From NCBI GenBank assembly GCA_947172415.1, contig OX359202.1:3136001-3200000 (forward strand): a DNA stretch of 64,000 nucleotides. Reading direction: 5' to 3'. Position 1 is the first letter of the stretch; each line of letters starts with the position of its first letter. Made by a program: the position numbers and the translations under genes. The notes under the pieces are model-generated. The model was not told where the DNA came from, did no database searches, and saw only the letters and a program-made list of their open reading frames with translations. This stretch comes from Chondrosia reniformis. Taxonomy: Eukaryota > Porifera > Demospongiae > Chondrillida > Chondrillidae. Of this stretch, positions 2,994-58,722 are shown piece by piece.

Positions 2994-3035
2994 AAGAAAC
3001 CTGGAGATTTCTCTGATAGAAAACCCTGTGGGGCG

Positions 3036-4027: not shown

Positions 4028-4034
4028 TGATCTT

Positions 4035-38267: not shown

Positions 38268-38504
38268 TTGTGTGTACTGGTAGTATGTACTACTTAGATG
38301 TACTAGTTATATGTTCTAGTTATAAGTACTAGTTATATGTACTATTTATATGAACTAGTTATATGTTGGTGTACTAGGTATATGTACTAGTTGTATGTAC
38401 TAGTTATATATACTATTTAAATGTCATAGGTGTATGTGTATGTACTAGTTATATGTGCTAGCTGTATGTACTAGTTATATGTACTAGTTGTACGTACTAG
38501 TTGT
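38235..38504 (+). repeat. 13-bp satellite, short block
   Basis: Continues the array interrupted by the LINE. It aligns with 57550-57690, the sister without the LINE. Confidence 0.9.
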
Positions 38505-39373
38505 GTGGGAGCAGGAGTAACGGCGGAAATGGTGGAACCGTGAGAATGGCAGAAAGCACGAAAATGGGCTGGTCTCAAAGCCACTAGTCAGCTGGAAATG
38601 CATGCATCTTTCTAACTAATTGCGATGCAGTAGCAGGGATTGATGGAGCCTCTTAAAGCTCTCCTTTGGAGCGAACGTCTATAAGAAAGGCTTAGAAACA
38701 TTTGGGAACGGCTGAGTACGATAAAATGGTCATATATGATGTAACATAAAATGTCCTCGTGTTGGAAAACTTGGCTTTTGGCTGATCTTGGTTAAAAGAG
38801 GCTTGGAATAAACCGTTTGTAGGATGAGGTTTTAAGAAGGTTGGTTGTACTACCAGAAGTACACATGGAACTGACCAAGGATCAGCACTTTGTCAATTTA
38901 GGGGCTACCAAATTAAGGTTGTTCCGATGATAATTGGTGCTTTGGGGACTGTGGATACACTCCTGGAAGACCTTAGGGGAATTCCAAAGCTGTCAAAAAG
39001 TGCAGTAGAAGTGATCAGAGCCATGTAGAGAACTGTTCTCTGTTCAGCTGTATGGATATTGAGGCGACATCTATCTGTTGAGGGATTGGGGCCTGGACGA
39101 TAAGTAGTCCTGTCCCAGTCCTTGCCTGTCGACCTCTGGAAAGCAGTGGTGGTTTGGTGTATGGAGGTCCTCCTTCCTACTATGACGATCAACTTTGGCC
39201 CAAGGTCCACCGGTCTGCCACTGCTGGAAGGAGGCAAAGCCAAGGCTTCTGGCTAAAAACACAAAGAAGGGAAAACATAATTGACTGAGGGTGGCCAAAG
39301 CCAGATACTCCTTGCCTTAGTAAATTAAGGCAAGACATAACAAGGTTCTCCGTTAAGGTTTTTGTTTCTAAAA
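38505..39373 (+). mobile_element. LINE-tail chimera, copy 2
   Basis: The same structure as at 24141: about 390 bp of unrelated 5' sequence, then the R2-type LINE 3' end from about 38894, with the stem-loop near 39318. The 5' part has an extra GGCTTGGAATA-like insertion relative to copy 1 around 38798. The right-hand satellite flank matches those of copies 1 and 3. Minus-strand open frames at 38905-39298 are antisense shadows. Confidence 0.65.
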
Positions 39374-41052
39374 CTAGTTATTTGCACTAGTTGAATGTAC
39401 TTGATGTACTGGGTATTAGGTAGGTACTAGTTGTATTTACTAGTTGTATATTCAAGTTGTATGTAATAGTTGCATGTACTCAACACTAATTGTAGGTACT
39501 AGTTGTATGTACTAGTTATATGTACTAGCTGTATGTACTAGTTGTATGTACTATTTAAATGTACTAGGTATATGTGTATGTACTAGTAATTAGTAATATG
39601 TACTAGTTGTATGAATAAAAGTTGTATGTACTAGTTGTTAGTTATACTACTAGTTATACTAGCTACTAGGAAGGTACTAGTTGTAAGTACTAGTTGTAAG
39701 TACTAGTTGTTTGTACTAGTTGTATATACTAATTGTATGAACTAGTTGTATATACTATTTTTTGCACTAGTTCTAAGTACTAGTTGTATGTACTAGTCCT
39801 ATGTACTAGTTGTATGTACCAGTTGTATGTACTATTTATATGTACTAGTTGTATGTACTAGTTGAATGTATTAGTAGTATGGACTTGATACTAGTTGAAT
39901 GTGCTTGTTGTATGACTAGTTGTGTGCAATTGTTGTATGTACTAGTTATATGTACTAGTTGTATGTACTCTTTATATATACTAGTTATATATGTATGTAC
40001 TAGGTATATATACTAGTTGTATTTGCTAGTTATATGTACTAGCTGCATGTACCAGCTGTATATACTAATTGTAGGTTCTAATGCTCTTTAGACATACAAG
40101 GTATTAGGTAGTTACTAGTTGCTAGTAGTAATTGTTTGTAGTATTTGTAAGAACTAATTGTATGCACTAGTTGTAGGTACTAGTTGTATGTACTAGTTGT
40201 AGGTACTAGTTGTATGCACTAGTTGTATGTACTAGTTGTATGTACTAATTACTAGATGGATGTACTAGTTCTATGTACTAGTTATATGTCCTAGTTCTAT
40301 GTACTAGTCGTGTGTACTAGTTGTATGTACTATTTGTTTGTACTAGTTTTATGTCCTTGTTATATGTACTAGTTACCAGTTGTATGTAATAGTCGTATGT
40401 ACTATTCGTATGTGGTAGTTGTGTGTACTGTTTTATGAACTTGTTATATGTGTATTTACTAAGTATATGTACTAATTGTATCTACTAGTTATGTGAACTA
40501 CCTGCATGTAATAGCTGTATATATTATATAGTTGTAGGTTCTAGTACTATATAGTTCTAAAAGGTACTAGGTAGGTACTTGTTTTTTGTACTAGTTGTTT
40601 ATACTAATTGTAAATACTAATTGTATTTACTAGTTGTATGTACTAGGTGTTTGAACTAGTTGCATGTACTAATTACTGGTAGTATGCACTAGTTGTATGT
40701 ACTAATTGTATATACTAGTTGGATGTACTAGTTGGATGTCCTAGTTGCTTGGACTACTTGTATGTACTACTTGCATGTATTAGATGTATGTACTCTTTCT
40801 ATGTACTATATGTATATACTAGATATATGTACTGGTTGAAGTACTAGTTTAATGTACTAGTTGAATGTACTAGTTGTATATACTGGTTTTATGTTCTAGT
40901 TGTATGTGCTACTTGTCAAACTTGTTGAATGTACTAGTTGTAGGTATTAGGTATAAGTACAAGTACTAGTTGTAGTACCAGTTTAAATTACTACTTTTAT
41001 ATACTAGTTTTGTGTACTAGTTGTATGTACTAGATGTATGTACTAGATGTAT
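39374..41052 (+). repeat. 13-bp satellite array, block 9
   Basis: Satellite paralleling 25000-28000 and 57933-59870. It contains the uninterrupted TA site (39830-39831) corresponding to the MITE at 58723. No gene is seen. Confidence 0.9.
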
Positions 41053-41808
41053 CAGAGAGTACGGTAGTACTCTCTATGTAGGGATGGTACTGGTTGTTTC
41101 GTTTTCCCCATACATTGGTATAGGAGCGAAATTCCAAATTAGGCTGAAAATCGCCGAAACGAGACTATGTAGAGTTAAATATAGAACAGCCATGCTATAA
41201 ATTGGCCTTGAAGGCAAGCGACCGCGTATCGTTGGCAAATGAACGAACTCTGAAATCTCCCATTTTCGTTTTCTTCTTCTTCATCTTCTTTTTCATCTTC
41301 TTCGCCCGCTGTAACTAAAAAACAAAATAAGCCTTCGGACTACTTCTTAAGCGAAAATACTCTAAATTTTCCGAGCTGTATTCTTTTGTAGAAGCGAGAG
41401 CGATAACGCTATTTTTGAGTATGACAGTTTTCATGGCCCCAGAGTCAAGACCTCAATAAAGTCGCCATTTTAATGACGTCATATCAGTCGAAGATTGCAA
41501 AACCAAAGTGGTTTAAAATACACGAATTCCTAACTTATGCTCCATAAAAAGTACAGAAACTAGAGAACAATAAAAATTTTCTACAAATATAGTAAAGATG
41601 TAGGGATGGCACAAAAAGCAGAGAAACAAGAAAGGGATGTTACACAGTGAAGCATTAGCTATGCATGAATCCTACAAGCAAGGGTGTTGTATGATTCATG
41701 CATATATAGCTAATGCTTCACTGTGTAACATCCCTTTCTTGTTTCTCTGCTTTTTGTGCCATCCCTACATCTTTACTATTTTTGTAGAAAATTTTTATTC
41801 CTCTCTAG
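41053..41808. mobile_element. Foldback element, left arm plus central palindrome, copy 2
   Basis: The same design as 12381-13164: terminal hairpin, about 500-bp arm with a TTC-rich tract near 41270-41300, then the palindrome at 41560-41808. The palindrome loop is flanked by GCATTAGCTA arms. The right arm is missing, again ending at CTCTCTAG. Sister satellite near 31960-32060 runs through this site without an insert, so insertion came after that duplication. Confidence 0.75.
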
Positions 41809-43022
41809 TGTACTAGATGTATGTACTAGTTGTAGGAACTAGTTGTGTCTACTAGTTTATTACTCTAGTCCTATGTTCCAGTTGTACTACTAGTTGAACG
41901 TCTTAGCTGTATTTACAACCTGGTAGAACTAGTTGCAGTTAGTCATTGCATGCAATAGTGGTGTGCACTAGTTATATTTAGTAATTGTAAGTACTAGTTG
42001 AATGTACTAGTTGTTTGTACTAGTTCTATGTACTACTTGTATGTACTCGTTACAAGGTGAATGTACTAGCTGTATGTACTAGTTGCATATAATAGTTGCA
42101 TGTACCAGCTGTATGTACTAGTTGTAAGTACTAGTTTTAGAACTTTTAGTATGTACTAGTTGTAGGAACTAGCCTTAAGTACAACTTGTATGTACTAGTA
42201 GTATGTACTAGTTTTATACTCTACTTCTATTTACTAGTTGTAGGACTAGATGTATGCACTACTTGTATGAACGAGTTGTATGGACCAGTTTTAGTACAAG
42301 TTGTATGTACTAGTTGTATGTACTAGTTGTATTTACTAATTTCATGCTCTAGTTCTATGTACAAGTTGTAATACTAGTTGTATATACTATTTGTATGTTC
42401 TTGTTCAATGTACTAGTTGAATGTGCTCTTTGTATTTTCTAGTGTATGTACTAGTTGTATGTACTAGTTGTATGTACTAGTTGTATGAACTGCTTGTATG
42501 TACTAGTGTGTAAACTGGTTATATGTACTAGTTTTATGTACTAGTTGTATGTACTGGTTGAATGTACTGGTAGTATGTACAAGTAATATGTACTAGTTTC
42601 ATGTACTAGTTATATGTACTAGTTGCATGTACTAGTTGTAATCACTAGATATAGGTACTAGTGATATGTATTAGTTGTATGTACTATTTCTACGTACTAG
42701 TTGTACATTCTAGTTGTATATACTAGTTATATGTGCTTGTTGTATATATCGACTAGTTATCTGTACTAGTTATGTATGTATCTACTAGTTATATGTACTA
42801 GTTGTATGTACTAGTGGTAAGTACTAGTTTTAATCACTTGTTATAAGCACCTCTTATATGTACTACTTATATGTACAACTGTGTGAACTAGTTGTAGGTT
42901 CTAGTACTAGTTATAGTAGGTACTAGGGAGGGACTATTTGTTTTTATAGAATACTAGTTTAATGCACTAGTTGCATGCAGTTGTTTTATATATGAACTTG
43001 TTGCATTTACTAGGACTAGTTA
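41809..43022 (+). repeat. 13-bp satellite array, block 10
   Basis: Satellite. Its last 140 bp match 22740-22881 and 35050-35193 up to GACTAGTTA. The array is then interrupted and resumes at 56561 with the exact continuation of those sister copies. No gene is seen. Confidence 0.9.
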
Positions 43023-46000
43023 TCAGAGAGTACGGTAGTACTCTCTATGTAGGGATGGTACGGGTCGTTTCGTTTTCCCTATACATGTGTAAAGGAGCGA
43101 AAATCCGAATTAGGCAGAAAATCGTCGAAAAAAGGCTATGTAAAGTTAACACTAGACTATCCATGCTATAAACTGGCCTTTAAGGATAACGACCGTGTTC
43201 CGCTGGCAAATAAACAAACTTTGAAATATCCCACTTTCGTTTTCTTCTTTTTCATCTTCTTCATCTTCTTCGCTCGCTGTAACTACAAAAGGAAATAGGT
43301 TTTTGGGCTAATTCTTTAGCAAAAATACTCCTAATTTTCTGCGCTGTATTCTTTTGTAGAAGCGAGAGCGATTACGTTATTATTGAGCATGACGGTTTTT
43401 GTGGCCCAAGAGTCAAGGCTTCAATATATTCGCCATTTTAATGACGTAATATCCATAGCAACCAAGTTGAGAAACGATTTCGTCAACTTCAAGAAATATT
43501 AGATTGGATAGAAATTAGCACGAATGGCGCAAGGAAGAAGAAATCCAGTAGTTAGTTGTACTTTGTTTGTCTATATGTTATGTAAGTATCTAGCTAGTAA
43601 TTGCGCCTGACTCGGTTCGGCAAGATCTTCGGGCCAATGTTTGACTTTCAAAATGAAATTATCGGCTAAATGTTCTGTGTGTTACGTTACGTAGCTTAAT
43701 AATGATTATACTTAATGTTGGCTGTATATATGTTTGGAACGTTAGTCTAGTTGTGAATGACTTTCGGCTATATATTATTCTCATTAAACTGTTAATGAAT
43801 AATAATAATTAATAATACTTAGGTGACCATATGATTCTCTGTATGCAACTCTCTTTTTACTTTCATATGACCATCTAAGTCCTAAGATGGATTGGTCATA
43901 TGCTTGGAATGACAGAGTTGTGTTGAGATAAATCGACTTAATTAATGATCTGTTTTTATGTCCCTGAAGCCATATATAGAAGGTTCGCTATATTCTTTCG
44001 TAGGAGCGAGGGTGATAACATTATTAAGCATGACGATTCTTGGCACCAGAGTCATTGCATCAATGAATTCGCCATTTTATTATATAAAAGAGAACAATAA
44101 AAATTTTCTACAAAAATAGTAAAGATGTAGGGATGGCACAAAAAGCAGAGAAACAAGAAAGGGATGTTATACAGTGAAGCATTAGCTATATATGCATGAA
44201 TCATACAACACCCTTGCTTGTAGGATTCATGCATATATAGCTAATGCTTCACTGTGTAACATCCCTTTCTTGTTTCTCTGCTTTTTGTGCCATCCCTACA
44301 TCTTTACTATTTTTGTAGAAAATTTTTATTGTTCTCTAGTTTCTGTACTTTTTATGGAGCATAAGCTAGGAATTCGTGTATTTTAAACCACGTTGGTTTT
44401 GCAATGTTCGACTGAATATGACGTCATTAAAATGGCGACTTTATTGAGGTCTTGACTCTTGGGCCATGAAAACTGTCATACTCAATAATAGCGTTATCGC
44501 TCTCGCTTCTACAAAAGAATACAGCTCGGAAAATTTAGAGTATTTTCGCTTAAGAAGTAGTCCGAAGGCTTATTTCATTTTTTAGTTACAGCGGGCGAAG
44601 AAAATGAAGAAGAAGATGAAGAAGAAGAAAACGAAAATGGGAGATTTCAAAGTTGGTTCATTTGCCAACGATACACGGTCGCTTGCCTTCAAGGCCAATT
44701 TATAGCATGGCTGTTCTATATTTAACTCTACATAGTCTCGTTTCGGCGATTTTCAGCCTAATTCGGAATTTCGCTCCTATACCAATGTATTAGCTATATA
44801 TGCATGAATCATACAACACCCTTGCTTGTAGGATTCATGCATATATAGCTAATGCTTCACTGTGTAACATCCCTTTCTTGTTTCTCTGCTTTTTGTGCCA
44901 TCCCTACATCTTTACTATTTTTGTAGAAAATTTTTATTGTTCTCTAGTTTCTGTACTTTTTATGGAGCATAAGCTAGGAATTTGTGTATTTTAAACCACT
45001 TTGGTTTCGCAATGTTCGACTGAATATGACGTCATTAAAATGGCGACTTTATTGAGGTCTTGACTCTTGGGCCATGAAAACTGTCATACTCAATAATAGC
45101 GTTTTCGCTCTCGCTTCTACAAAAGAATACAGCTCGGAAAATTTAGAGTATTTTCGCTTAAGAAGTAGTCCGAAGGCTTATTTCGTTTTTTAGTTACAGC
45201 GGGCGAAGAAGATGAAGAAGAAGATGAAGAAGAAGATGAAGAAGAAGATGAAGAAGAAGAAAACGAAAATGGGAGATTTCAAAGTTGGTTCATTTGCCAA
45301 CGATACACGGTCGCTTGCCTTCAAGGCCAATTTATAGCATGGCTGTTCTATATTTAACTCTACATAGTCTCGTTTCGGCGATTTTCAGCCTAATTCGGAA
45401 TTTCGCTCCTATACCAATGTATTAGCTATATATGCATGAATCATACAACACCCTTGCTTGTAGGATTCATGCATATATAGCTAATGCTTCACTGTGTAAC
45501 ATCCCTTTCTTGTTTCTCTGCTTTTTGTGCCATCCCTACATCTTTACTATTTTTGTAGAAAATTTTTATTGTTCTCTAGTTTCTGTACTTTTTATGGAGC
45601 ATAAGCTAGGAATTTGTGTATTTTAAACCACTTTGGTTTCGCAATGTTCGACTGAATATGACGTCATTAAAATGGCGACTTTATTGAGGTCTTGACTCTT
45701 GGGCCATGAAAACTGTCATACTCAATAATAGCGTTTTCGCTCTCGCTTCTACAAAAGAATACAGCTCGGAAAATTTAGAGTATTTTCGCTTAAGAAGTAG
45801 TCCGAAGGCTTATTTCGTTTTTTAGTTACAGCGGGCGAAGAAGATGAAGAAGAAGATGAAGAAGAAGATGAAGAAGAAGATGAAGAAGAAGAAAACGAAA
45901 ATGGGAGATTTCAAAGTTGGTTCATTTGCCAACGATACACGGTCGCTTGCCTTCAAGGCCAATTTATAGCATGGCTGTTCTATATTTAACTCTACATAGT

Positions 46001-46112
46001 CTCGTTTCGGCGATTTTCAGCCTAATTCGGAATTTCGCTCCTATACCAATGTATGGGGAAAACGAAACAACCAGTACCATCCCTACATAGAGAGTACTAC
46101 CGTACTCTCTGA
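43023..46112. mobile_element. Foldback array: old left arm, palindrome, three right-arm repeats
   Basis: Starts TCAGAGAGTACGG and ends in its reverse complement. The left arm is diverged, and an inner stretch at 43985-44080 resembles the same arm again. 43460-43985 is unassigned AT-rich DNA. The palindrome is at 44089-44339. The right arm then occurs three times head to tail, with starts at 44183, 44791 and 45423 (608 and 632 bp). The 24-bp difference lies in a GAAGAAGAT microsatellite. The last unit ends with the full terminal repeat at 46111. Short identical 64-codon frames in each unit come from the repeat and are not genes. Confidence 0.75.
44089..44339. repeat. Central palindrome of the foldback family
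   Basis: About 110-bp arms starting AGAACAATAAAAATTTTCTAC and ending in the reverse complement TTTTTATTGTTCTCTAG, with a 20-base loop. The loop reads CAACACCCTTGCTTG here but its reverse complement at 12902-13164 and 41560-41808. The arms have thus flipped relative to the loop between copies. Confidence 0.8.
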
Positions 46113-46150
46113 TTAGTGAATGTAACTCCATTAGCAACCTATTCGTAAAA

Positions 46151-46240
46151 ATGGCGATTGCTTTAAATGTTCTGACAGTCTTCGGGCTTTTAACTTCAAC
46201 AGTGCTTTTAAGCGCTCCAGCGTCATTGACGCTCGTATCA
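46151..46240 (+). CDS. Possible signal-peptide exon with splice donor (hypothetical)
   Basis: An ATG opens 30 codons with a strongly hydrophobic N-terminus, MAIALNVLTVFGLLTSTVLL, ending SAPASLTLVS. The consensus donor GTAAGT follows at 46241-46246, exactly at a codon boundary. Reading on gives only 23 more codons to TAA at 46310-46312. A first exon of a secreted protein would look like this, but no downstream exon is recognised and the sequence lies inside transposon-rich DNA. It could equally be a captured exon or a chance frame. Confidence 0.35.
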
Positions 46241-46356
46241 GTAAGTTACTACTACATGCACTCCTATGTTGAATTTTTATCCTATCATTTGACCACATTT
46301 AATTCAGTTTAACTTAAAATCTTCATTTAATTATTGGGCGAACTTTTATTAAAATA

Positions 46357-46710
46357 TTAACGGTCATTCCCCATCACACCTCCTATATATAAACCTGGCT
46401 GTATCATTCCCACCTCATCCTTTTGCTGATAAAGACCTTTGTATTCAAAACGTTCAAGAACTTGTATGTCTAAGTCCTCTGGATAGCTACCTCCATTCAT
46501 CGTAACCGTATGATTATAACCACGGTAATGGACCTTCACTTGTCCTGTCATAATGTTATGCTCGACAACTTCCACTTCATAAAAACTTTCTTTCGTACGT
46601 TTTGGCCTAATCGTTTTCTTGACTCTTTCACATAATTGTGAGATAGAGAGTTGCGTTGAAAATAATTTTACTTTCAGTTGTCTTAAGTTATAGCAACTAA
46701 TCTCTGTGAC
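46357..46710 (-). CDS. Hypothetical ORF, possible terminal exon
   Basis: Open on the minus strand from 46710 to TAA at 46357-46359, about 117 codons with no convincing ATG. It includes ESFYEVEVVEHNIMTGQVKV, then HYRGYN. The middle vaguely resembles chromo/Tudor-knot barrels, which often have KVHYxGY. That is only a resemblance. Codon content looks protein-like, so it may be a terminal exon or an exapted fragment. It converges on the hypothetical exon at 46151 from the opposite strand. Confidence 0.3.
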   Translation of the reverse strand, partial: VTEISCYNLRQLKVKLFSTQLSISQLCERVKKTIRPKRTKESFYEVEVVEHNIMTGQVKVHYRGYNHTVTMNGGSYPEDLDIQVLERFEYKGLYQQKDEVGMIQPGLYIGGVMGNDR

Positions 46711-46712
46711 TC

Positions 46713-47060
46713 AAGGGATGGAGAATTGATCAACAATCACTGTAGCAATTACCAATTATTGCACCCTTATATCACGTATTGCATTACTTAAGAGATAAAT
46801 GTCTATGAATACAATTATAGAGTGCATCCAAATGAATAATGTTACTCCGCATCCCTAATACCTTTTGCAAAATGAGCGCTACAAATTCATATGAATTACT
46901 GTTGTTAATGCTACTATGAAATCCATTGCATTATCTTTCAGTTAAGCATACAACTTATTTACAAAATTTAGAACAAGAAATTTGGGAAAGGAACAGCAAG
47001 AAGGAAATGCACCAACCACATGGATTTGGAGCCAAGATCAGATAAGTTATACAATATACA
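46713..47060. other. AT-rich stretch, nothing recognised
   Basis: I see no ORF, inverted repeat or satellite here. It separates the foldback array and small ORFs from the SINE pair. Confidence 0.6.
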
Positions 47061-47400
47061 ATGAATAATCAATGTGATAATCAAACCACAAGTTATAATC
47101 AATGAAACATCATAAAGAGGGAAAAACACGAAAGAAGCAATTGCTGGGAATTGAACCCAGGACAGCTGGTTATGACCACCAGTTGCTCTGCCACTGAGCT
47201 ACAACTGCCACAGCAATGCCTCTCCCATGTTCTCCCTCTTAAACTAACTACAACAAATAATCAGTGTACATTCTTAATTAGTGGTGATTCACTTCATCAG
47301 ACAAGCTGATAATCAAGACCCAGCCCATTTCCAGTGGGAGGGGCCATCTTAACCAAAGGGTCGCTGGCCACCATCAACCACAGGAGAGCTGGGTAAATCT
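47061..47400 (-). mobile_element. tRNA-derived SINE, copy 2 (longest)
   Basis: Read on the minus strand it starts near 47400 with CCCAGCTCTCCTGTGGTTGA, continues through the segment shared with copy 1, the tRNA-like core (47137-47208), and the tail ending GATTATTCAT. The first ~55 bp are absent from copy 1, which is 5'-truncated. It lies head to tail with copy 3, whose tail abuts directly at 47401. Confidence 0.75.
47137..47208 (-). tRNA. tRNA-like core of SINE copy 2 (pseudo-tRNA)
   Basis: Same fold and same box A and B as the core at 19140-19211, with the same GGTCATA loop lacking U33. The sequence is unchanged over the 72 bases compared by eye. The conserved oddity suggests it was already present in the SINE master copy. 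Confidence 0.7.
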
Positions 47401-47548
47401 ATGAATAATCGATGTGATAATCAAACCACAAGTAATAATCAATGAAACATCATAAAGAGGGAAAAACACGAAAGAAGCAATTGCTGGGAATTGAACCCAG
47501 GACAGCTGGTTATGACCACCAGTTGCTCTGCCACTGAGCTACAACTGA
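47401..47548 (-). mobile_element. tRNA-derived SINE, copy 3 (5'-truncated in the tRNA)
   Basis: Contains the tail and the tRNA-like core (47477-47548). Homology then stops at the first bases of the acceptor stem, where the putative Helitron region begins. This truncation point marks a junction, perhaps the left edge of the Helitron. Confidence 0.7.
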
Positions 47549-47561
47549 ACTACAATGTTAT

Positions 47562-48146
47562 GTGAAATGTGGCTGTGTCGTGTGGTTTCTGGCATATTTG
47601 TCAGCTACTCTCCTGTTTCAACCAATGTCAGACTCTTTACTTATTTTCTGCAGAACTCCACCTGCTGTACAGGGCGAGGAACAGGAAACAGTTGTTCCTG
47701 CTATTGAACTTTTATATATGCAGAATCTGTGTCTACCTTGTACCATATGTAGTGTTAATTGCACTGATGAATTAATGAATTTGTGTTGGCCCTGTGGCTG
47801 GGGCATTTGGTCCTGTGGTTGGGGTATTTGGTTCTGTGGCTGGGACTATTGGTCCTGTGACTGGGACTATTGGTCCTGTGACTGGGGTAATTCCTTCTGT
47901 TGCTGGGGCCATAAGTCCCATAACTGTGGCAGTTGGGAAAGTGGGATTCTCAGGGAAGTACCACAGTTTGTTGCAGCTCCAAATGATTTTATAAGGATCA
48001 CTGTTACAGCTGCAAAAGGGACATGTCGCAGTCATTATACTGAAAATACTATACTTCAGTACTATAATAGCATAGCAATGAGGAATTTTGCATTTATTTT
48101 AAGTACTGTTGATGCTGGCAAGCATACATTCATTTGTCAGAAATAG
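47562..48146 (+). CDS. Open frame upstream of the Helitron ORF (doubtful)
   Basis: 194 codons open in the same frame as the 2A-like segment that follows, ending at TAG 48144. The middle is a 7-residue repeat (CGWGIWS-like) created by a 21-bp minisatellite, and the other frames of that minisatellite are open as well. The frame ends just before the hydrophobic leader of the 2A segment. It may be 5' UTR or a decayed first coding part. I do not recognise a domain. Confidence 0.25.
   Translation: MKCGCVVWFLAYLSATLLFQPMSDSLLIFCRTPPAVQGEEQETVVPAIELLYMQNLCLPCTICSVNCTDELMNLCWPCGWGIWSCGWGIWFCGWDYWSCDWDYWSCDWGNSFCCWGHKSHNCGSWESGILREVPQFVAAPNDFIRITVTAAKGTCRSHYTENTILQYYNSIAMRNFAFILSTVDAGKHTFICQK
47799..47924 (+). 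repeat. 21-bp minisatellite, six units
   Basis: Units such as TGGGACTATTGGTCCTGTGA-C repeat every 21 bp, becoming diverged at the right end. Because 21 is divisible by three, every frame gives a heptapeptide repeat, which explains overlapping open frames on both strands here. Similar TGTGGCTG-rich words recur after the OTU region near 55070-55120. Confidence 0.8.
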
Positions 48147-49136
48147 TACTGGTTCAGATACACACTGTGGCTGCTACTATGCAGAAGATGCTATTGTAAA
48201 CATAATTGCTCCTTAGCCAGAGCACTTACTTTGTTGCTGCTGCTTGGAGGAGATATAGAATCAAATCCAGGTCCTTCAAAGGAATGGCTTAAGAAACAGG
48301 CCAAGAAACAAAAGTATGTGTTGCAAAGAGAAGAAATATTAGAGAAGCGAAGGCTTGATTATGCAGAGAGTCCTGAACCAAAATGACAGGGATCCAAAGA
48401 AAGCTATGAAATTAACATTGAGGCCAGGAAATCTGCTTTTAAAGTAAACTCCTCTGCTAATTCTGAAGCTAGAAAGGCTTCATCTAAAGCACATTACACT
48501 GTCACTCCAGAAGCAAAGAAAGCTGCAGCTAAAGCAAGACACTTTGCTGATCCAGAAGCGAGGAAATCTGCTTTTAATATAAACTACTCTACTAATTCTG
48601 AAGCTAGGAAGGCTTCATCTAAAGCACATTACGCTGTCAATCCAGAAGCAAAGAAAGCTGCAGCTAAAGCAAGACACCTTGCTGATCCAGAAGCGAGGAA
48701 ATCTGCTTTTAATGTAAACTACTCTACTAATTCTGAAGCTAGGAAGGCTTCGGCTAAAGCACATTACGCTGTCAATCCAGAAGCAAAGAAAGCTGCAGCT
48801 AAAGCAAGACACTTTGCTGATCCAGAAGCGAGGAAGTCTGCTTTTAAAGCCAACTACTTGGCTAACTCTGAAGTTAGGAAGGCTGCGGCTAAAGCACGTT
48901 ACACTGTCAATCCAGAAGCAAAGAAAGCTGCAGATAGAAAAAGGTACAAATGCAACTCAGGTGTGAGAAAAGCTGTCTCAAGAGCAAATTATGTTAAAAG
49001 ACGATGGATGAAAATAGCTGCATCAAAATCAATTTATGAACAGAAAAAGGAGCATGTGAATATTTATCGTAGAGATAAATATGCTTTGAATGAACCAAAA
49101 GCATATGCTAGGCAGCAGTATGTAGCAGATTTGTAG
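48147..49136 (+). pseudogene. Helitron N-terminal ORF: hydrophobic leader, 2A-like motif, 15-residue basic repeats
   Basis: After TAG 48144 the same frame reads a Cys- and Leu-rich leader ending ALTLLLLL, then GGDIESNPGP (48246-48275), then a lysine-rich linker. TGA at 48384 and a short out-of-frame patch follow. From about 48424 come three 135-bp repeats. Each encodes three 15-residue modules of the type NPEAKKAAAKARHFA, then a diverged tail to TAG at 49134. Such PEA(R/K)K repeats precede the Rep domain in some invertebrate Helitron proteins and are likely nucleic-acid binding. No ATG is found in frame before the 2A motif, so the native start is unknown. Confidence 0.65.
48246..48275 (+). 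other. 2A-like ribosome-skipping motif (GGDIESNPGP)
   Basis: Matches the 2A core D-(V/I)-E-x-N-P-G-P at every fixed residue and is preceded by a leucine run, as in known animal 2A-like sequences. 2A makes the ribosome skip the final Gly-Pro bond and release two proteins from one frame. Such motifs are documented in animal non-LTR retrotransposons and NLR-type proteins, where the upstream part can also act as a signal sequence. Activity of this copy is inference. Confidence 0.75.
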
Positions 49137-49160
49137 AAAAAGCTATTTTCAAAGCCTTCC

Positions 49161-49691
49161 TTGAGACTGGAATTAAGGAAAGACTTTAAGCAAAGTCATG
49201 AAAATATTGCAAGGAAATTGTCAAAAGGTGTCTTGACAAAAACTGTTTGCAGAATCACTGCACAAAGACTTCTTGACAGGGTAATCAAGAAGCACAGAGA
49301 GAGAGTGGGACAGTTGCTGAAGTGTGTTCGAGTGGAAAATTCTTTTGAACTGTCATTGAATTTGGGAGAAAGGTGGTACACTGCCTCGTCAGAGCCATTC
49401 TTTTATGATACCGCTTACATGCCAATGAAGCAAAACAATGCCATACCAGTGGATTAGTGTGGACGATGCTGCACTGCTGAGGAAGTGGGTGACAGAGACA
49501 AAAATACAATGCGTCCCAAAAAGTGGAAGTGCACAGAAGAGTGCAAACTGCCAACAGATGAAGAGATTAGTTCCATTGTTGCCGCAAAGGAACTTTTCAA
49601 AAAATTCATGCAAGAGCTTAGAAATGGACTTGAGTCCATCGACGATGGGATGTCAGCATGGACACTATACAGATCGGTGCTTTGTAGCTAA
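49161..49691 (+). pseudogene. Helitron ORF, segment between basic repeats and N domain
   Basis: The frame of the basic repeats continues past TAG 49134 and reads 99 codons to TAG 49455, then a stretch containing KKWKCTEECKLPTDEEISSI to TAG 49689. From there the coding frame shifts by one to join the next ORF. It is helix-rich and charged, with no domain I can name. It is placed here because frame and spacing fit a single original protein. Confidence 0.5.
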
Positions 49692-49764
49692 ATTTACCAG
49701 TCAACTGGATGAGCAAGAGTAGTTCCATGAGCTGCTAGGCCACCCATTTCCCTGTGCCATTGGA

Positions 49765-51372
49765 ATGTGCAGTAGTCTGCTTAGAACCCTCAGTGCTGCT
49801 TCCACTCACTACCCACGAATGCGAAGGTTCCTAGTCTTGCTATATTCTGCAAGAAACCACCATCGCCAAATTAATGCCATTGATGTGGCACTCGATTTAG
49901 TAGATTTTGATCTACTAATGGATGCTGCTGGCATCAGTCACTGTGTGGAACTATGTCAGAGTGAGTTTGAATCATCTCAAGAGAACTTGGCAGCAGGTCT
50001 TCCTAGTCTGGAACCCTTGCTTCAAGTAAAGCATGCCACTCTGATTACTAAACTAGAGAAGGAGGTTGGTGATGACCCAGAGTATGCATGTTGCTGTTGT
50101 GAGCATTTGCACCAACGAAAGAATGTCACAAGCATGAAGAAGAGTACCTTAAAGTTTGTGACAAAGGTCTGGCAGCAATTAAAGAAGTACATACTTGAGC
50201 AGAACAATGAAACTGGAATTGATTCTCTGTATGTGTGCCAATACTGCCGACCAATTCTGAATGACAACAAGGTACCTTCGCGCTGTATTCTGAATGGTTT
50301 GATAACTGAGCCTATGCCTGCAGAACTAGCTAAATTGGATGTTTTGAGTAGACAGCTGATTCAACGAGCGAAAGCATTTCAGACAATTGTAAGGTTAGAC
50401 ACATACACAGCCAAAGTGCCTATTTACAATTCACTAAAAGCTTGTAAGGGAACCATGTTCTTTCTTCCCCTACCTTTGAAAAAAACTTTGGAAACATTAG
50501 GAAATGTGAAGTCTGTCAACCAAGAGAGCAATTCACTCTCTCAGAAATCTGACCAAGATCCACATGTGCCATTGCCTGACCCTGAATTGTACATCATGGC
50601 CAATGGAATACCTTCAGAGAAGAAGGTCATTTGGCACAGCATAGTTGATGTGAGTGCAGTCAAGATTGCCATTCAAAAACTAAGAGAAATAAACTGGCTT
50701 TACAAAGAAGTTGCTGACACAAGCATTAATGAGGTTGCACAACAAGTCATTGAAACTGCAGACAGTGCAACCAGTACCATGTTAGTAAAGGCTAGTAAGG
50801 AAGATGTGTCCAGCTTTCAGTCATACACCATTCGTAGTTGGAATGTGAAGCAGTCTACAGTTTCTGATATTGAACAGTACAAACTGCTTAGTGTAAAGGA
50901 GGATGCATTTGACAATCGCCAAAAATTCCTGGATGTTATGTGCTTTCCTCATCTGTTCCCAAGTGGTAGGTTTGGTGAGTTTCACCAACGTAAATTAAAA
51001 ATCTCCTTCAGTGAGTATGCCAAATCTCGGCTACTAAACAAGGACTCTCGTTTTCGAAAAGATCCCCAGTATGTATTCTTTCTCATTTGTCAGAAAGAAT
51101 TACGGGAGCTCTCTGCAGGGGTTTACAAATTGATGAAAAGGACAGTACACCAAAGAATGTCTGTGCAGTTGTTCCTAGACAAGGTATCACATGCTGATGA
51201 ATCGGTGGAAGCAAACGTGTCCACAATATTACAATCCACTAAGCAGTACTGGTTCTTGAGGTCCAGTGAACTGCATTGCATGCTTCGTGAATGGGGTACT
51301 CCTACCCTGTTTCTCACATTCAGTTGTGCTGAATATGAGTCTCCAGAGATTGGAAGTTACCTAAAAAATTAA
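49765..51372 (+). pseudogene. Helitron transposase, N-terminal domains (DUF6570-like and Helitron-like N)
   Basis: 535 open codons. A Cys/His cluster CCCCEHLHQ (109-117) and CQYCRPIL (158-165) suggest metal binding. Around 155-250 the pattern resembles the DUF6570 domain often found in these proteins (LDVLSRQLIQRAKAFQ). From about residue 390, MCFPHLFPSGRFGEF and YVFFLICQKELREL are typical of the Helitron-like N domain that precedes Rep. It closes with LREWGTPTLFLTFSCAEY. The frame ends at TAA 51370, inside the domain, and the next part is in another frame. The first ATG is probably internal to the original protein. Confidence 0.75.
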
Positions 51373-51427
51373 TCAGGTATCTGACAGCTATCCAGTTTGG
51401 AAACTGTGCTGTGAAGATCCCATATCA

Positions 51428-51760
51428 TTGTCTAGGAAGTTTTTTCAAAAGTTCCATGCCTTGTTCAATACTGTGATTCTAAAAGGACAGGTTCTTGGCA
51501 AGGTAGAGCACTATTTCTTCAAAAAGGAATATCAGACACGGGGTGCACCTCATTATCATGTCGTCCTCGGTTTACAAAATGCACCAGTGATTGGCAAGGA
51601 TCAGCCAAAGCGAGTGCTAGATTGGATTCAGAAGAGAATCACTTGTCAAATCCCTGAAGAAAGGACAAATCCAGAGTTGCACAGGTTGCTCACTAGGTAC
51701 CAGATGCACAATGCAGCAACTACTGCAAGCGAAAGGCAAGGTACAATGGAGCATTTGTGA
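51428..51760 (+). pseudogene. Helitron Rep domain, HUH motif
   Basis: 110 codons with EYQTRGAPHYHVVLGL. The two histidines H42 and H44 (51551-51559) form the HUH metal site of rolling-circle nucleases. The preceding KFHALFNTVILKGQVLGKVEHYF fits the Rep fold. Coding homology continues after a frameshift near 51750. The frame ends at TGA 51758. Confidence 0.85.
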
Positions 51761-51960
51761 CTAGATGCAAGTTTGGATTTCCATGGGAAGTCAGTGACAC
51801 TGGCTCCTTGAACAGTGTGGAAGATTGCCTCAAATCAAGAAAAAAGATATACCACCTTCCACAGGCAGAACGGGAGACGAAAGTGAATGATTACAATCCT
51901 CTGTTGCTTTTGCTGTGGAAACAAACATGGATGTACAGTTTATTGCCGAGTCATCACTAG
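51757..51960 (+). pseudogene. Helitron Rep, bridge between HUH and Y2 motifs
   Basis: Contains TRCKFGFPWEVSD, matching the conserved C(R/K)FGFP segment between the HUH motif and the catalytic tyrosines, and KVNDYNPLLLLLWK. It is offset by one base from the previous and following pieces, so at least two indels surround it. Confidence 0.7.
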
Positions 51961-52562
51961 CCCTTGCTCACTATGTGACAGGATATGTCACAAAGGCAGA
52001 AAGAAGTAACATGCAGGATCTGTGGCAGGAAATTGGCTCCAACAAAAGTGTGTACAGTCGACTTTGGAGCTTTGGTATCAGAAGCTTGCGTTCTCGAGAG
52101 TGTGGACTCTATGAAGCAAGCGATCTGTTGATTGGCGATCACTTGTGTGAAAAGCCTGACACAGTTCAGTCGATTGACACCACCTTTCCACACAAAAAGA
52201 AACGCAGACTGAAGGATCACAGTAAGCTGCAAGAGCTTGGAAAGAAAGATCCAAATTCAACTGAAATCTTTGAAGACAGTGTCATTGACACATATTACCC
52301 ACAAAGGCCAGAAAAATGGAGGAGGTTTGCCTTTATGATTTTGTTAAATACTATGCGAAGTGTAAAGATGACAAATCAGGGCAGCGCAAGTATCACAGGC
52401 TTACCAAGCCCTGTCTTCCAAATCACAGGCTCTTTGATCCTAACAAAGAGGATCAGAAGGGAGAGTACTTTTACTCCATGCTACTGTTGTTTGTGCCTTT
52501 CAGAAGTGAAGGTAATCTACTTGCAGAGAATGAATCTGCTGAAAAGGCCTTTGCTCATTTAG
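51915..52562 (+). pseudogene. Helitron Rep, two-tyrosine motif, and linker
   Basis: ALAHYVTGYVTKAE carries two tyrosines, Y20 (51972-51974) and Y24, spaced as in the catalytic Y2 motif of Helitron Rep. These tyrosines attack DNA during rolling-circle transposition. Downstream to about 52330 the residues (SRLWSFGIRSLRSRECGLYEASDLLIG) match the expected Rep-helicase linker. Past that the coding frame shifts, and the last part of this open frame is not genuine. Confidence 0.8.
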
Positions 52563-54622
52563 TAGAGGCCAACCCTGACATGTACAGCCACCATGACAGA
52601 TTGCAACAAATGCTGAAAGCAAATGCTAAAGTGAAGGAGAATAATGAAGCTAGACAAGAAGAGGCAACTTTCTCTGTTGACAAAGAGGACATGGACAAAG
52701 GACCCCAAATTGTTGGGGAAGCAACAGCAGCTATGAATGATGTGCAGGAGCTGCAAGTAAATTGTACTGATGAAATCAGCCTTGAAGAGCGGATTGACAA
52801 ATTGAATGCAGACCAGTCACGTGTCTTTAAACGCATATCTGAACACCTTCTACACCAACAAAAACATGAGTCTGGAGTGTATAAATGCTCACAATTGCAA
52901 CCACTGCAAATGTTTGTTAACGGAGTTGGAGGGACTGGAAAATCTTTCCTTATTGAAGCCATCAGAGCTCAGGTGGCTACAATATGGAAAGACAAGTACG
53001 AGACACTTCTCTGTGCAGTGGCTGCACCAACAGGGCTTGCAGCCTTTAATGTTGGTGGCGTTACTGTGTATCGTTTGTTTCAGTTACCCATTGAGCATGA
53101 GGGAAAAGAAACTGCCTATTGGGGACTGCCACGAGACTCATTGAAGATCATGAGAACGACACTTTGAGATGTGAAACTTTTCATAATTGATGAAATGTCT
53201 ATGCTATCTAGTCTCAACCTGGCCTATCTTCATTTGCACCTGGAAAAAGTGTTTGGGACTGACAATTGGTTTGGGTCGATCAATATTCTCTTTGTGGGTG
53301 ATCTTCTGCAGCTGCCCCCAGTCAATGGTGCACCTGTGTTTGACAAACTGAACAACAAAGCAGTTTTATCAAAGCTAGGTTGCATGACTTCAGTAAACAT
53401 CTGGAAGAAAACTGTAGAATATGATGAGCTGACAATCAACGAGCGTCAGAGAAAGGACACACAATTCTGTGGAATTCTGGATGAAATCCGACGTGGTTGT
53501 GTGTCTGAAGAATGTGTTAAAACTCTGGAAGAGAGAGTTATCCATAGTCCAATAGCTGATAAATTTGAGGAACTGATGCACTCTGGGAAGTCGCCTGTAT
53601 GCCTATTTCCTACACGAAAGGCATGCAAAGAGTTCAACAATGAAATGCTCAGCAAGTTAGAGTGCAAGACTGTTGAAATTTGCTGCACTGATGAAGTAGA
53701 TGAAACTAAAGGCATGCACAAATGGAGCAAAAAAGAAGCAGAAGAGCTGAAGAGACTAAACAAAGACTGCAACCTAACTGCTGGTTTAGAGGCTGTGCTT
53801 CATATTGCTGTTGGGGCAAGAGTCATGTTGCGTAGGAATACTAATACAAGCTTGGGGTTGGTTAATGGCGCACTTGGCACAGTTGTGGCCATTGGTGCAC
53901 ACAAAGTGACAGTGAAGTTTGACCACATGAGCACAGAGTATGAAGTAGAAAAAGTCAAGAGCAGATTTCTTGTAATGAGAAGAGTCTATGTTTACAGGGA
54001 ACAGTTTCCACTGATATTGGCTTATGCTGTAACAATCCACAAGTGTAAAGGTCTTTCTCTTGACTGTGCCATGATGGATCTTTCTGACCAGGTCTTCCGT
54101 TCAGGTATGGCCTATGTTGCACTGTCACGAGTAAGATCACTTGATGGGGTGCACCTGGTTGCCTTTGATAGAAAGTCAATTATCGTTAGCTCAAAGTGTC
54201 TGCTGGAAATTAACAGGTTACGACAATTGCATAGACCAGACTTGATGGTCTATGCTTTGCCACCTGAACAAAGTAGCATTAGAAAGAGAAAGCTCAGTGG
54301 TACTTGCACAATCCCACCTGACCCTAAAAAGCAAAAGAAGAGTCTGAAAGGTACAACTGCAAGCTCCAAAAATGCTCGAAAGAGACCACTTTGTCAGATA
54401 AAGCAAATTAAAAGGCAACTTGCAGAGAAGCCATGTATGGAAACTGACAGCAACAACAGAGGTTGGAGTCAATTGGAACGATGCTCATTTAGGTTCCATC
54501 CAGTTGATTCGAAGTGGCAAAATAAAGCATGCAGTAGGGTAGGTGTCCAGTACCAACGACCTTGTCGATTTGGGCATGGCACACCAGGCTGCCCTCTGAA
54601 ACGGCCAACTTCCAGACAGTGA
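52316..54622 (+). pseudogene. Helitron PIF1-type helicase with one in-frame TGA
   Basis: One frame from 52316 to 54622, broken only at TGA 53165-53167. That codon probably comes from CGA by CpG decay, since the protein resumes at once. Walker A is NGVGGTGKS (52922-52945 for GVGGTGKS). After the stop come Walker B LFIIDEMSML, then FVGDLLQLPPVNG, VTIHKCKGLSLD and MAYVALSRVRSLDGVHLV. All are signature motifs of PIF1/RecD-like superfamily 1 helicases, which unwind DNA during Helitron replication. The C-terminal tail is lysine-rich and ends with a Cys/His patch (CRFGHGTPGC). Confidence 0.9.
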
Positions 54623-55032
54623 GATGGATGCTTCCAGATGGCAATTGTCTTTTCCGTTCATTCTCAATGATCATCACAGGGTCACAAGAAGGCCATCTTG
54701 CAGTTAGAAATGCAATCATCAAACATATGCAAAAGATTGCAACCCTTTTGCTAGGAGCACATGTAACTCAGAACAGTATTGCTGAGTACATACAGGACAC
54801 ACACATGGACAGGGATGGAGCATGGGGTACAGATGTAGAAATCCTCACTTTGGCTCATTTACTGCAGACTAACATTTATGTGTTTGACACCAGTTCTGAT
54901 AGCTGGCTACTATATAGTCCTTACCACTTGGACCATACTTTGCCAGTTGACAGCAGTGCAAAGTCAATGTACACTGTGCATTTTCCACAGCATTTTGAGG
55001 TAGTCTCATCTGTGGTGAAGGCAGCGACTTGA
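54562..55032 (+). CDS. OTU-family cysteine protease domain of the Helitron
   Basis: 156 codons in the frame after the helicase. The catalytic cysteine box is WMLPDGNCLFRSFS, with D26 and C29. WGTDVEILTLAHLLQTNIYV is the second conserved OTU segment, and QHFEVV near the end supplies the expected histidine (H144). OTU enzymes cleave ubiquitin-type linkages, and OTU domains occur in some animal Helitrons and Helentrons with unknown purpose. The start is uncertain, because the helicase and OTU overlap in different frames. Either an indel split a fusion or the two were separate products. Confidence 0.8.
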   Translation: MSIWAWHTRLPSETANFQTVRWMLPDGNCLFRSFSMIITGSQEGHLAVRNAIIKHMQKIATLLLGAHVTQNSIAEYIQDTHMDRDGAWGTDVEILTLAHLLQTNIYVFDTSSDSWLLYSPYHLDHTLPVDSSAKSMYTVHFPQHFEVVSSVVKAAT

Positions 55033-55759
55033 GACACACACAGGGTTAATGTATCGTGCATGTTTACAGGGCTGTGGCTGAGGTGGTTAACTCTGTGGCT
55101 GGAGTTGTAAATGGGTGGCTGAAGTATAGTGTACACAGTGACGTTGGTGCATTGCTTTCTCCTTTGCTGGGATAAAGAGATGGTAAATTTGCCTATATAC
55201 AGTGAATGCTCTGCCTACTTGAGCCTTTGATCTATTATTGCTTATAATATTAATTTTATACATTTTCTACAATAAAGTTTACATGCATTTTACACAATTT
55301 GCAAGTTCTCAAGTGCCCATAGACTCCAATTGAAAGGGTAAGGACTCATTATATTTTCTATTATAATTGCCATTATCATATGTTGGTTCACAACCAAATG
55401 TTGATAGACACTTTTCACTCTTTTCCTTGCAGAATTCTCCTACTATAAATGAAGTTTCGTGAAATGAAGAAAAATTCCTTTAATTAAGAGTCAAACATTT
55501 GACGCCAAGTACATCTTATAATTACACCATGAACATGGTACACCTTTCACTATCCTTTACTAACTGCATTGACTATATACAGATGACATTCAACTGCACT
55601 TAAATTACTTTTGTTTTGTTAATCTGAATCATTTGGAAGCCACAAAGTTTATTATATTTAAATATTTAGATGTAAATTAATGAAGAATTAATTATAGGGT
55701 ATACCTGGAGGTTAACCCTAAATTATATATCAGCTTGTGCTCCATAAAAAGTACAGAAA
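55033..55759. other. Helitron 3' region and AT-rich DNA; polyadenylation signal at 55271-55276
   Basis: TGTGGCTG-rich words at 55070-55125 recall the 5' minisatellite. AATAAA at 55271 could end the Helitron transcript. Beyond about 55290 I see only AT-rich sequence with no ORF, and I could not find a Helitron-type terminal hairpin followed by CTRR. Confidence 0.5.
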
Positions 55760-56560
55760 CTAGAGAACAATAAAAATGTTCTACAAAAATAGTGAAGATG
55801 TAGGGATGGCACAAAAAGTATAGGAACAAGAAAGGGATGTTACACAGTGAAGCATTAGCTGTGCATATGAATCATACAACCAAGGGTGTTGCAACATATC
55901 CCTACATCTGGCAACATTGGCATAGGAACTGGGGCAGATGAAGCTGCGTCCCCCTAACATGTATTCTCCTCACAATTACCGTGATGCAGTGAAATTAGTG
56001 TAAAGGCTGCAAATACGTATAGAACCTACCAGTCTTTTATCAGCTGAAGAAGGTCTGCACAAAGTATTATGTGTAATAATGTTTCCTCTATGTCCCACTT
56101 CCCTGTATAAATAAAATTTAAATGGCTCAAATGAATAAAACATTTGTTTGCATATAGAATGACACATTTTAAGGCTTCCTGTATGGTGGCATATACCAAT
56201 GTATATATACGTCCTGAAATAATCTTAATTGTTCTGACATGCTATATACGAATGATGTATAACTGAAAGCTGGACACATCTTCCCGACCATAGCCTTCAC
56301 CAACAGAATGACAAAGGCTTCCTGTATGATGGCATATATCAATGCACATGGGAAGAATAAGGTAGACACCATGCATTTTCTAGTGGAAAGCACACCATGC
56401 AAAATGTTGCCAGTTGTAGGGATATGTTGCAACACCCTTGGTTGTATGATTCATATGCACAGCTAATGCTTCACTGTGTAACATCCGTTTCTTGTTTCTA
56501 TACTTTTTGTGCCATCCCTACATCTTCACTATTTTTGTAGAAAATTTTTATTGTTCTCTA
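55760..56560. mobile_element. Large palindromic foldback relative with 495-bp loop
   Basis: Arms at about 55760-55913 and 56409-56560 are inverted copies and share the foldback palindrome sequence (AGAACAATAAAAAT, GGATGGCACAAAAAG). The loop is unique AT-rich DNA. It holds two direct copies of AAGGCTTCCTGTATG(G/A)TGGC (56172 and 56309) about 137 bp apart and some short open frames of no clear meaning. The right edge abuts satellite that continues the array left at 43022. Confidence 0.75.
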
Positions 56561-57695
56561 TATTTACGAGTTGTAGGTACTAGTTTTATGTAGTGGTTGT
56601 TTGTAACAGTTGTATGTACTAGTTGTATGTATATACTAGTTGTGTGTACTAGCTATGTACTGTTGTATGTACTAGCTGTATGTACTAGTTGTATGTCCTA
56701 GTTGTGTGAAAAAGTTTTATTTACTAGTTGCATATACGCTAATTGTATTTACCAATTGTGTGTAATAATAGTATGTTCTAGTTGTATGTACTATTTAGAT
56801 GTACTAGTTATATGTTTGTGTACTGGGCATATGTACTAGTTGTACGTAGAAATTATATGTACTAATTGTTTGACTAACTGTATATATGTACTAGTTCTTT
56901 GATCTATTTGTATGAACTAGGTATATGTGTATGTACTAGTTATATGTACTAGCTGTATGTACTAGTTGTAAGTTCTAGAACTAGTTATAGTAGGTATTGG
57001 TAGGGACTAGTTGTTTTTACTAGATACTAGATTTATGTACTAGTTGAATGCACTAGTTTTAAGAACTAGTTGTATGTACTAGGACTAGTTATATTTACTA
57101 GTTGTAGGTACTAGTTGTATGAAATAGTTATGTAGAAGTTGTGTGTACTAGTTGTATGTATATATTAGTTGTATGTATATATTAGTTGTATGTACTAGCT
57201 ATGTACTAGTTGTATGTACTAGCTGTATGTACTAGTTTATATTTAAATGAGATTGTTGTAACTACTAGTTGTGTGAACCGGGTTTATGCACTATTTATAT
57301 ATACTAGTTATATGTTAGAGAACTAGTTATATGCAGTAAGTCTACATAGTAGCCATATATACTAGTTGTAGGTTCTTGTCCTTCTTATACTATGTACTAG
57401 TTATTTGTGCTAGATACTAGTTTTATGTACTAGTTGTATGTACTAGTTTTATGAACCAGTTGTATGTACCAATTGTATGTATATACTGGTTGAATGTATT
57501 ATTTAGATGTACTAGTTGTATGTACTAGTTGTGTGTAAAAGTTGTAAGTACTGGTTGTATATACACTAATTGTATTTACCACTAGTGTGTTCTAGTTGTA
57601 TTTTCTAGTTGTATGTACTACTTAGATGTACTAGTTATATGTTCTAGTTATGAGTACTAGTTATATGTACTAATTATATGACCTAGTTATATGTT
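56561..57695 (+). repeat. 13-bp satellite array, block 11
   Basis: Resumes exactly where 43022 stopped, judged by sister copies at 22881 and 35193. It includes TAAAAGTTGTAAGT at 57536-57549, the empty-site counterpart of the LINE at 36201. No gene is seen. Confidence 0.9.
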
Positions 57696-57932
57696 CTGGA
57701 AAGCAGTGGTGGTTAGGTGTATGGAGGTCCTCCTTCCTATTATGACGGTCAACTTTGGCCCAACATTCACCGGTCTGCCACTGCTGGAGGGAGGCAAAGC
57801 CAAAACTTCTGGCTAAAAACACAAAGAAGGGAAAACATAACTGACTAAGGGTGGCCAAAGCCTGATACTCCCTGCATTAGTAAACTAAGGCAAGATATAA
57901 CAAGGTTCTCCATTAAGGCTTCTGTTTCTAAG
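57696..57932 (+). mobile_element. LINE-tail fragment, copy 3
   Basis: Only the last 237 bp of the R2-type LINE 3' end, with the stem-loop. The left satellite matches 38235-38350 and the right satellite matches that after 24999 and 39373. Compared with copy 2, a block of about 780 bp (satellite, unique 5' part and some LINE) is deleted. Confidence 0.8.
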
Positions 57933-58722
57933 GCTAGTTATTTGCACTAGTTGAATGTACTAGATGTACTAGGTTTTAGGTAGGTACTAGTTGTATTTAC
58001 TAGTTGTATATTCAAGTTGTATGTAATAGTTGCATGTACTCACCACTAGTTGTAGGTACTAGTTGTATGTACTATTTAAATGTACTAGGTATATGTGTAT
58101 GTACTAGAAATTAGTAATATGTACTAGTTGTATGAATACAAGTTGTATGTACTAGTTGTAAGTTGTACTACTAGTTATACTAGCTACTAGGAAGATACTG
58201 GTTGTAAGTACTAGTTGTTTGTACTAGTTGAATTTTATAGTTGCATGACTTAGTTGCATGTACTCAATACTAGTTGTATGTACTAGTTGTATGTACTAGC
58301 TATATGTACTAGCTGTATGTACTAGTTGTTTGTACTATTTAAATGTACTAGGTATATGTGTATTAACTAGATATTTGTAGTATATACTAGTTGTATGAAT
58401 ACAAGTTGTATGTATTAGTTGTAGTTTCTAGTGCTAGTTATACAAGCTACTAGGAAAATACTGGTTGTAAGTACTAGTTGTTTGTACTCGTTTTATGTAC
58501 TAGTTGTATGTACTAGTTGTATACACTAGAAAGTAGTTGTACTGTACTAGTTGTATGTATTAGTTGTAGGGGCTATAACTAGTTATACTAGGTCCTAGGT
58601 AGGTACTAGTTGTAGATACTAGTTGTATGTTCTACTTGTATGTACTAGTTGTGTGTACGTGTTGTATGGACTAGTTGTATGTACTAGTCATATGTACTAG
58701 TTGTATGTACCAGTTGTATATA
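57933..58722 (+). repeat. 13-bp satellite array, block 12
   Basis: Satellite parallel to 25000-25916 and 39374-39831. No gene is seen. Confidence 0.9.

Follow-up and report, generated by a model that had tools for sequence, protein, structure and literature searches.

A 13.5-kb insertion in satellite DNA of the sponge Chondrosia reniformis is probably a decayed Helitron-type transposon with short non-coding relatives

The window analysed here is a 64,000-nucleotide stretch of Chondrosia reniformis DNA (assembly GCA_947172415.1, contig OX359202.1, forward-strand positions 3,136,001 to 3,200,000), and it contains a 13.5-kb block, at 43023-56560, that interrupts a satellite. An earlier note on this DNA described the block as a single net insertion, bounded by foldback DNA and with a Helitron among its cargo. 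Our analysis upholds the single net insertion and corrects its identity: what resembled a foldback transposon with a Helitron as cargo is most probably the Helitron itself together with its short relatives. In our view the block is probably a single transposon copy of the rolling-circle (Helitron) type, and the "foldback" units are probably its short non-coding relatives. Two ends, an empty site between A and T, Rep, helicase and OTU coding sequences in the same orientation between the ends, the same ends on three short copies, and a broken reading frame can all be read directly in the DNA; a rolling-circle mechanism and the mobilisation of the short copies are what we infer.

The joint lies where the earlier note had placed it, with the left flank ending GACTAGTTA at 43022 and the right flank beginning TATTTAC at 56561. 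When 43023-56560 was removed, the joined flank aligned into 34556-36200, a sister copy of the satellite (the 35k sister), and passed 35193/35194 without a gap. In a second sister (the 22k sister), searches with 140-bp flanks stopped at 22881 on the left and began at 22882 on the right, and 56561-56703 was 93.0% identical to 22882-23024; the long alignment preferred a register approximately 274 bp further on and did not cross 22882. The claim that both sisters run uninterrupted through the joint is borne out by a gap-free alignment in the 35k sister, and in the 22k sister by the flank searches and the 56561-56703 match but not by the long alignment. A third uninterrupted paralogue, at 57091/57092, sits within the block's own right flank. 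The left 140-bp flank was 91.4% identical to the 35k sister and 86.3% to the 22k sister, and the right 140-bp flank 85.1% and 92.9%, respectively. Contiguous flank pairs occurred three times among the top five by top five matches, and none of 100 random pseudo-joints had any, which argues for one net insertion relative to the sisters.

Homology to the sisters had been said to continue for hundreds of bases on both sides of the joint. This is true of the right side, where it extends over about 1 kb at 88-92% (with a 274-bp jump in the 22k sister and a 62-bp gap in the 35k sister), but not of the left, where close homology to these sisters starts only at about 42853 and covers about 170 bp. To the left of that point these sisters are at background (71% and 76%) among the matches listed in a whole-window self-BLAST, supplemented by regional searches, and 41809-42732 is nearest (86.7%) to another satellite stretch, 31978-32903. 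Since 41809-42732 resembles a different stretch than do the last 170 bp or so before the block, a satellite breakpoint probably lies near 42732-42853.

Both ends of the block tie to one repeat family, whose members begin with TC, end with CTAG or a trimmed form of it, and sit between A and T. Both termini are common to the block, to two short copies in the satellite (41052-41808 and 12380-13164), and to a minus-strand copy inside the block (46112-44089). An exhaustive scan of the window found the 27-base 5' end in four copies, three of them identical and the fourth with two changes, and no fifth copy within seven mismatches. TC is present at the 5' end in three of the four copies; the 3' end reads CTCTAG before T in two, CTCTA before T in the block and CTCT before T in the nested copy, and all four, as delimited, have A before and T after. 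The TC/CTRR ends at an A^T site that characterise canonical Helitrons are therefore found in the family but not in full in the block, which ends CTCTA. No direct repeat of at least 4 bp flanks the block or the nested copy, and the flanking repeats of 11 and 7 bp at the two satellite copies are made up of the satellite unit and are indistinguishable from a duplication. At the site of 41052-41808, satellite 31924-32056 reads through and is shorter by 26 bp (two 13-bp units) near the joint; the empty site of 12380-13164 is weakly identified, several satellite stretches being in register at 81-83%. The earlier view that the edges of the block are those of a foldback family was correct in linking both ends to one family, but the family is not of the foldback type.

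The resemblance among family members extends inward from the ends. Over its final 60 bp the block agrees with the three relatives at 56/60, 57/60 and 57/61 positions, and 43023-43453 is 85.2% identical to 41052-41485, 83.4% to 12380-12833 and 86.3% to the nested copy. The first 40 bases form a hairpin with z scores of -3.65 and -3.66 in the two of four copies tested, one of 200 shuffles being as good in each case. A 15-bp repeat 25-39 bp from the 5' end has an inverted partner 37-53 bp from the 3' end (14 of 15 positions match), and none of 1000 shuffles was as good in each of the three copies tested (the block, 41052-41808 and the nested copy); 12380-13164 is more diverged.

Between these ends, Rep (with its HUH motif) and then a PIF1-type helicase, as expected of the Helitron superfamily, are encoded in that order on the plus strand, in broken frames (Table 1). 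Helraiser (7lcc, E 1.7e-4) was the only PDB match of the Rep piece below E 0.1, and the second helicase piece matched PIF1 helicases and Helraiser in PDB. The YVTGYVTK sequence at 51972-51995, which we read as the two-tyrosine motif, lies in a coding piece that had no Pfam or PDB match of its own. Ahead of the Rep region, a 135-bp tandem repeat (48426-48933; 3.8 copies, 93% matches) encodes a KA-rich repeat, and the frame containing it matched no Pfam family at E ≤ 0.01. With its coding pieces spread over different frames and an in-frame stop in the helicase, this copy is, judged from its sequence, very probably dead. No AP-type endonuclease domain was found in the coding pieces of this decayed copy, or in another 9 of the 21 frames listed for 55030-56420. 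Searches of virus and prokaryote collections, which have little bearing on a eukaryote, gave no 5'-end pattern in viral contigs, no 3'-end pattern in genome contigs, no relative of the Rep piece among three candidate stretches, no match to the N-terminal piece, and for the helicase piece one weak locus (35% over residues 5-61) that was not used.

Table 1. Features of the block and its relatives in the window
Feature	Position	Strand	Details
Whole net insertion, probable decayed Helitron-type element in 13-bp-type satellite	43023-56560	+	
5' end region	43023-43453	+	begins TC; 9-bp-stem hairpin at positions 3-24
15-bp subterminal inverted repeat, 5' copy	43047-43061	+	partner 38-52 bp from block 3' end
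Nested reverse-orientation short relative	44089-46112	-	interior of three tandem units (~610-630 bp)
tRNA-derived copy like a short interspersed element (SINE)	47061-47341	-	Rfam tRNA match 47136-47208
Second SINE-like unit	47401-47548	-	47401-47547 is 98.6% identical to 47061-47207
KA-rich 45-aa repeat open frame	48387-49136	+	135-bp tandem repeats, ahead of Rep region
DUF6570 and first part of Helitron_like_N (Rep)	49723-51372	+	Pfam E 2.4e-9, 3.8e-7
Rest of Rep, another frame	51365-51760	+	Pfam Helitron_like_N E 2.7e-10; HUH motif HYH 51551-51559
Coding piece, third frame	51891-52562	+	YVTGYVTK
PIF1-type helicase with in-frame stop	52289-54622	+	Pfam PIF1 E 1.3e-9, 6.5e-7 (two pieces); Walker A 52922-52945
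OTU-type cysteine protease domain	54538-55032	+	Pfam E 2.7e-12; PDB OTU domains
3' palindrome	55761-56560	+	arms 55761-55918 and 56403-56560 (97.5%) around a 484-bp loop; CTCTA closes the outer arm at the joint
Short non-coding relative in satellite	41052-41808	+	palindrome 41560-41809; ends CTCTAG before T
Short non-coding relative in satellite	12380-13164	+	2 changes in the 27-base 5' end; 3' end CTCTAG before T

In the mechanism that we propose, a Helitron-type element would have entered the satellite between A and T. Nicking by its Rep/helicase at the 5' TC end would be followed by the peeling off of one strand as far as the 3' end, CTAG, for which the likely stop signal would be the 3' palindrome. 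The short non-coding relatives would have moved through the same ends as the long element, and one of them, in reverse orientation, would have landed inside the block later, as would the SINEs. The 3' hairpin of Helraiser acts as a terminator (PMC4778049), and by analogy the palindrome is a likely stop signal. Each arm of the block palindrome is 158 bp long. In the short copies the 3' palindrome measures about 250 bp (96% in the nested copy), and predicted folding energies, calculated without a shuffle control, range from -105 to -136 kcal/mol. Both block arms stop at CTCTA(G), so that the inner one has the look of the element's 3' terminus copied in inverted orientation. The block's final 60 bp show no more tendency to fold than shuffled sequences do (61 of 200 as good), and the 16-20-nt hairpin that canonical Helitrons have about 11 bp from the 3' end was not detected there. 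A short inverted match (86%) was also noted between 50780-50836 in the coding region and 56247-56305 in the palindrome loop.

Several observations weigh against a single element, and the main rival is that a separate Helitron lies inside a short relative: a relative consisting of approximately 43023-43451 and 55731-56560 would have sat in the satellite and later been hit by an independent rolling-circle element encoding Rep, helicase and OTU. The left homology break reads ATA/TCC, which fits a 5' TC following A, and hairpins are found at both breaks (left z -3.37, right z -3.01), the right one, near 55730, ending about 10 bp short of the break, a spacing like that of canonical Helitrons; these points could therefore be the ends of a second Helitron, and they lower our confidence in one element. 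Other nested insertions are present in the block, and the earlier caution that stepwise nesting would yield the same picture was justified, given that the SINEs, like the reverse copy, have the look of nested insertions. Nevertheless, no CTRR is present at the right break, which ends TATATA, and the hairpins were sought after the fact. Equally stable ones are not rare in the interior (83 of 2010 windows of 40 nt, or 4.1%, for the left; 115 of 2002 windows of 60 nt, or 5.7%, for the right), and the 26-nt right hairpin alone was matched in stability at 159 of 10078 positions (1.6%). Apart from words of 12-13 bases, neither inner end recurs elsewhere in the window, no inverted repeat is common to the two (340 of 500 shuffles did as well), and nesting would require a Rep-coding element to have struck a small Helitron-type element in the same orientation. 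The 5-bp word ATATC common to both breaks is no evidence either way, since 641 of about 2000 random window pairs share one (pairs in the nested copy were skipped, which makes the true denominator somewhat smaller than 2000). The outer ends, the target and the gene content are all of the rolling-circle type in matching orientation, and the block has no more than the 5' portion of a short copy on its left and the 3' portion on its right, which favours one element to whose outer ends the Rep, helicase and OTU genes presumably belong, and we regard nesting as rather unlikely.

Other points also count against one element. The block and the nested copy fall short of CTAG by one or two bases, and the block joint can be shifted by up to 3 bp and, taken alone, is readable as a TAT duplication. 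The 48-bp spacer of 41052-41808 was not found in the block outside the nested copy, which costs the one-element and nesting models an extra step each (in the latter, its loss). The 5' part of the block is 83-86% identical to the short copies and the 3' inner arm 92-94% (p values of 0.007, 0.007 and 0.03, which are not independent), with 92.5, 85.6 and 93.3% for the outer arm; among the short copies themselves, the identities of the 5' part and the inner arm agree. This uneven divergence suggests that the block may be a mosaic, which would explain a gap that neither model predicts. As for a composite of two foldback elements with 13.5 kb of mobilised cargo, the block does contain a palindromic end and inverted copies, but the ends have no long inverted repeat in common (only the 15-bp subterminal one), each side holds only part of a family member, the ends are of the TC/CTAG type at A^T, and no 8-10-bp duplication was found at the block or the nested copy, the matter being undecidable at the two satellite copies. 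The tests for target duplications and terminal repeats led us to reject this composite, which we consider extremely improbable, and the Helitron once listed as its cargo is more likely the element itself. We give just as little credence to an ancestral block precisely lost from the sisters, or to a joint created by misassembly: this is a single assembly of a satellite region, but two sisters and a third paralogue lack the block at the same base, and its ends coincide with those of other family copies.

A single Helitron-type element of this kind would combine features of described groups in an unusual way, a 5' hairpin and subterminal repeats like those of Helentrons and Helitron2 being joined to canonical Helitron ends. 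Canonical Helitrons (Helibat/Helraiser) have TC...CTAG ends, insert at A^T without duplication and encode Rep and a PIF1-type helicase (PMC4778049; PMC4067079), all of which have counterparts in the block or its family. Unlike them, the block has a 5' hairpin and 15-bp subterminal inverted repeats, and its family has a 3' palindrome of about 250 bp instead of a 16-20-nt hairpin. Helentrons, their non-coding HINEs (DINE-1) and Helitron2 are described as having a 5' hairpin, subterminal inverted repeats that lie tens of base pairs inside the 3' end, a 3' palindrome, OTU, short non-coding relatives and internal tandem repeats (PMC4067079; PMC7492417; PMC5148889), each of which is also seen here; OTU domains are reported in both Helitrons and Helentrons (PMC4067079; PMC9741609). 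In contrast to Helentrons, the block has an A^T rather than a TT or T-rich target, and no endonuclease domain in the pieces scanned. Between G and P of Rep motif 2 it has A, a position occupied by S in Helentrons and by L in Helitrons (PMC4067079), and the palindrome arms of its family are about 120-158 bp long, compared with the 5-10-bp palindromes described for mite HINEs.

Provided that genes and ends belong together, the closest case, going by its description, is the intermediate proto-Helentron-Pi of Phytophthora infestans, an element of about 14 kb with a 3' CTAG, A^T insertion and no endonuclease (PMC4067079). The block resembles it in size, in A^T insertion, in the 3' CTAG of its family and in that no endonuclease was found in the pieces scanned, but proto-Helentron-Pi starts with TT, and the available part of its description does not mention OTU, subterminal repeats or a long palindrome (PMC4067079). 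Tetris, a foldback element of Drosophila virilis with terminal inverted repeats, 8-10-bp target duplications and a satellite link (PMC4079207), is similar in its large inverted repeats and its connection with satellite DNA; neither terminal inverted repeats nor 8-10-bp target duplications were found at the block.

One could envisage, tentatively, a lineage between Helitrons and Helentrons in which the short terminator hairpin was replaced by a palindrome of about 250 bp derived from the inverted 3' terminus of the element, leaving two outward-facing CTAG ends. Termination would then rely on a large cruciform, and a lapse in this step could account for the three tandem units of the nested copy. 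No Helitron with a long 3' terminal palindrome appeared in the titles and abstract openings surveyed, which is no proof of its absence from print. Should the palindrome and the mixed Helitron/Helentron ends hold genome-wide, they would offer a natural test of the role that the 3' hairpin plays when rolling-circle elements transpose, since one and the same genome has a version with a 484-bp loop alongside versions with almost no loop.

The nested short relative is closely related to the copy at 41052-41808 (44089-44790 is 96.9% identical to 41110-41806 in the self-BLAST matches listed). Its tandem units are 95-98% alike, among the matches listed and in the regional searches, and its two tandem junctions are identical to each other. 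We considered 43342-43440 as its empty site and rejected it: the segment is 78.8% identical to the joined site, but the similarity ends 9 bp before the joint. The same segment forms a diverged (79%) direct duplication with 43986-44079, and the nested copy lies 9 bp past the end of the latter. A relative of the SINE-like copy stands alone in the satellite at 19065-19347 (88.8% identical to 47061-47341) without the rest of the block. The possibility that parts of the block had inserted separately elsewhere, raised in the earlier note, is realised to this extent; in our reading of the sequence, the SINEs are passengers and the separately mobile parts are secondary insertions. No convincing target duplication was found for the SINEs, only SINE-internal, short or satellite words. 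A 117-aa open frame with an exon-like look (46357-46710, minus strand) had no Pfam match at E ≤ 10 and PDB matches no better than E 0.011, and the AlphaFold2 model of its product had a mean pLDDT (predicted local distance difference test) of 37; it is possibly a captured fragment of a host exon.

Elsewhere in the window, 2118-5975 (plus strand) contains coding sequence like that of retrotransposons without long terminal repeats (non-LTR), with a reverse transcriptase domain in 4350-4862; its 3' part has a close relative that stands alone at 10831-12015 (plus strand). A second element, of the long interspersed element (LINE) type, has a 596-aa open frame at 36516-38306 (minus strand) with endonuclease and reverse transcriptase domains. 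Copies of about 306 bp were found at 24762-25067, 39135-39440 and 57695-58000, the last being 92.2% identical to each of the other two, and reverse-strand frames overlapping 24762-25067 and 39135-39440 have near-identical translations.

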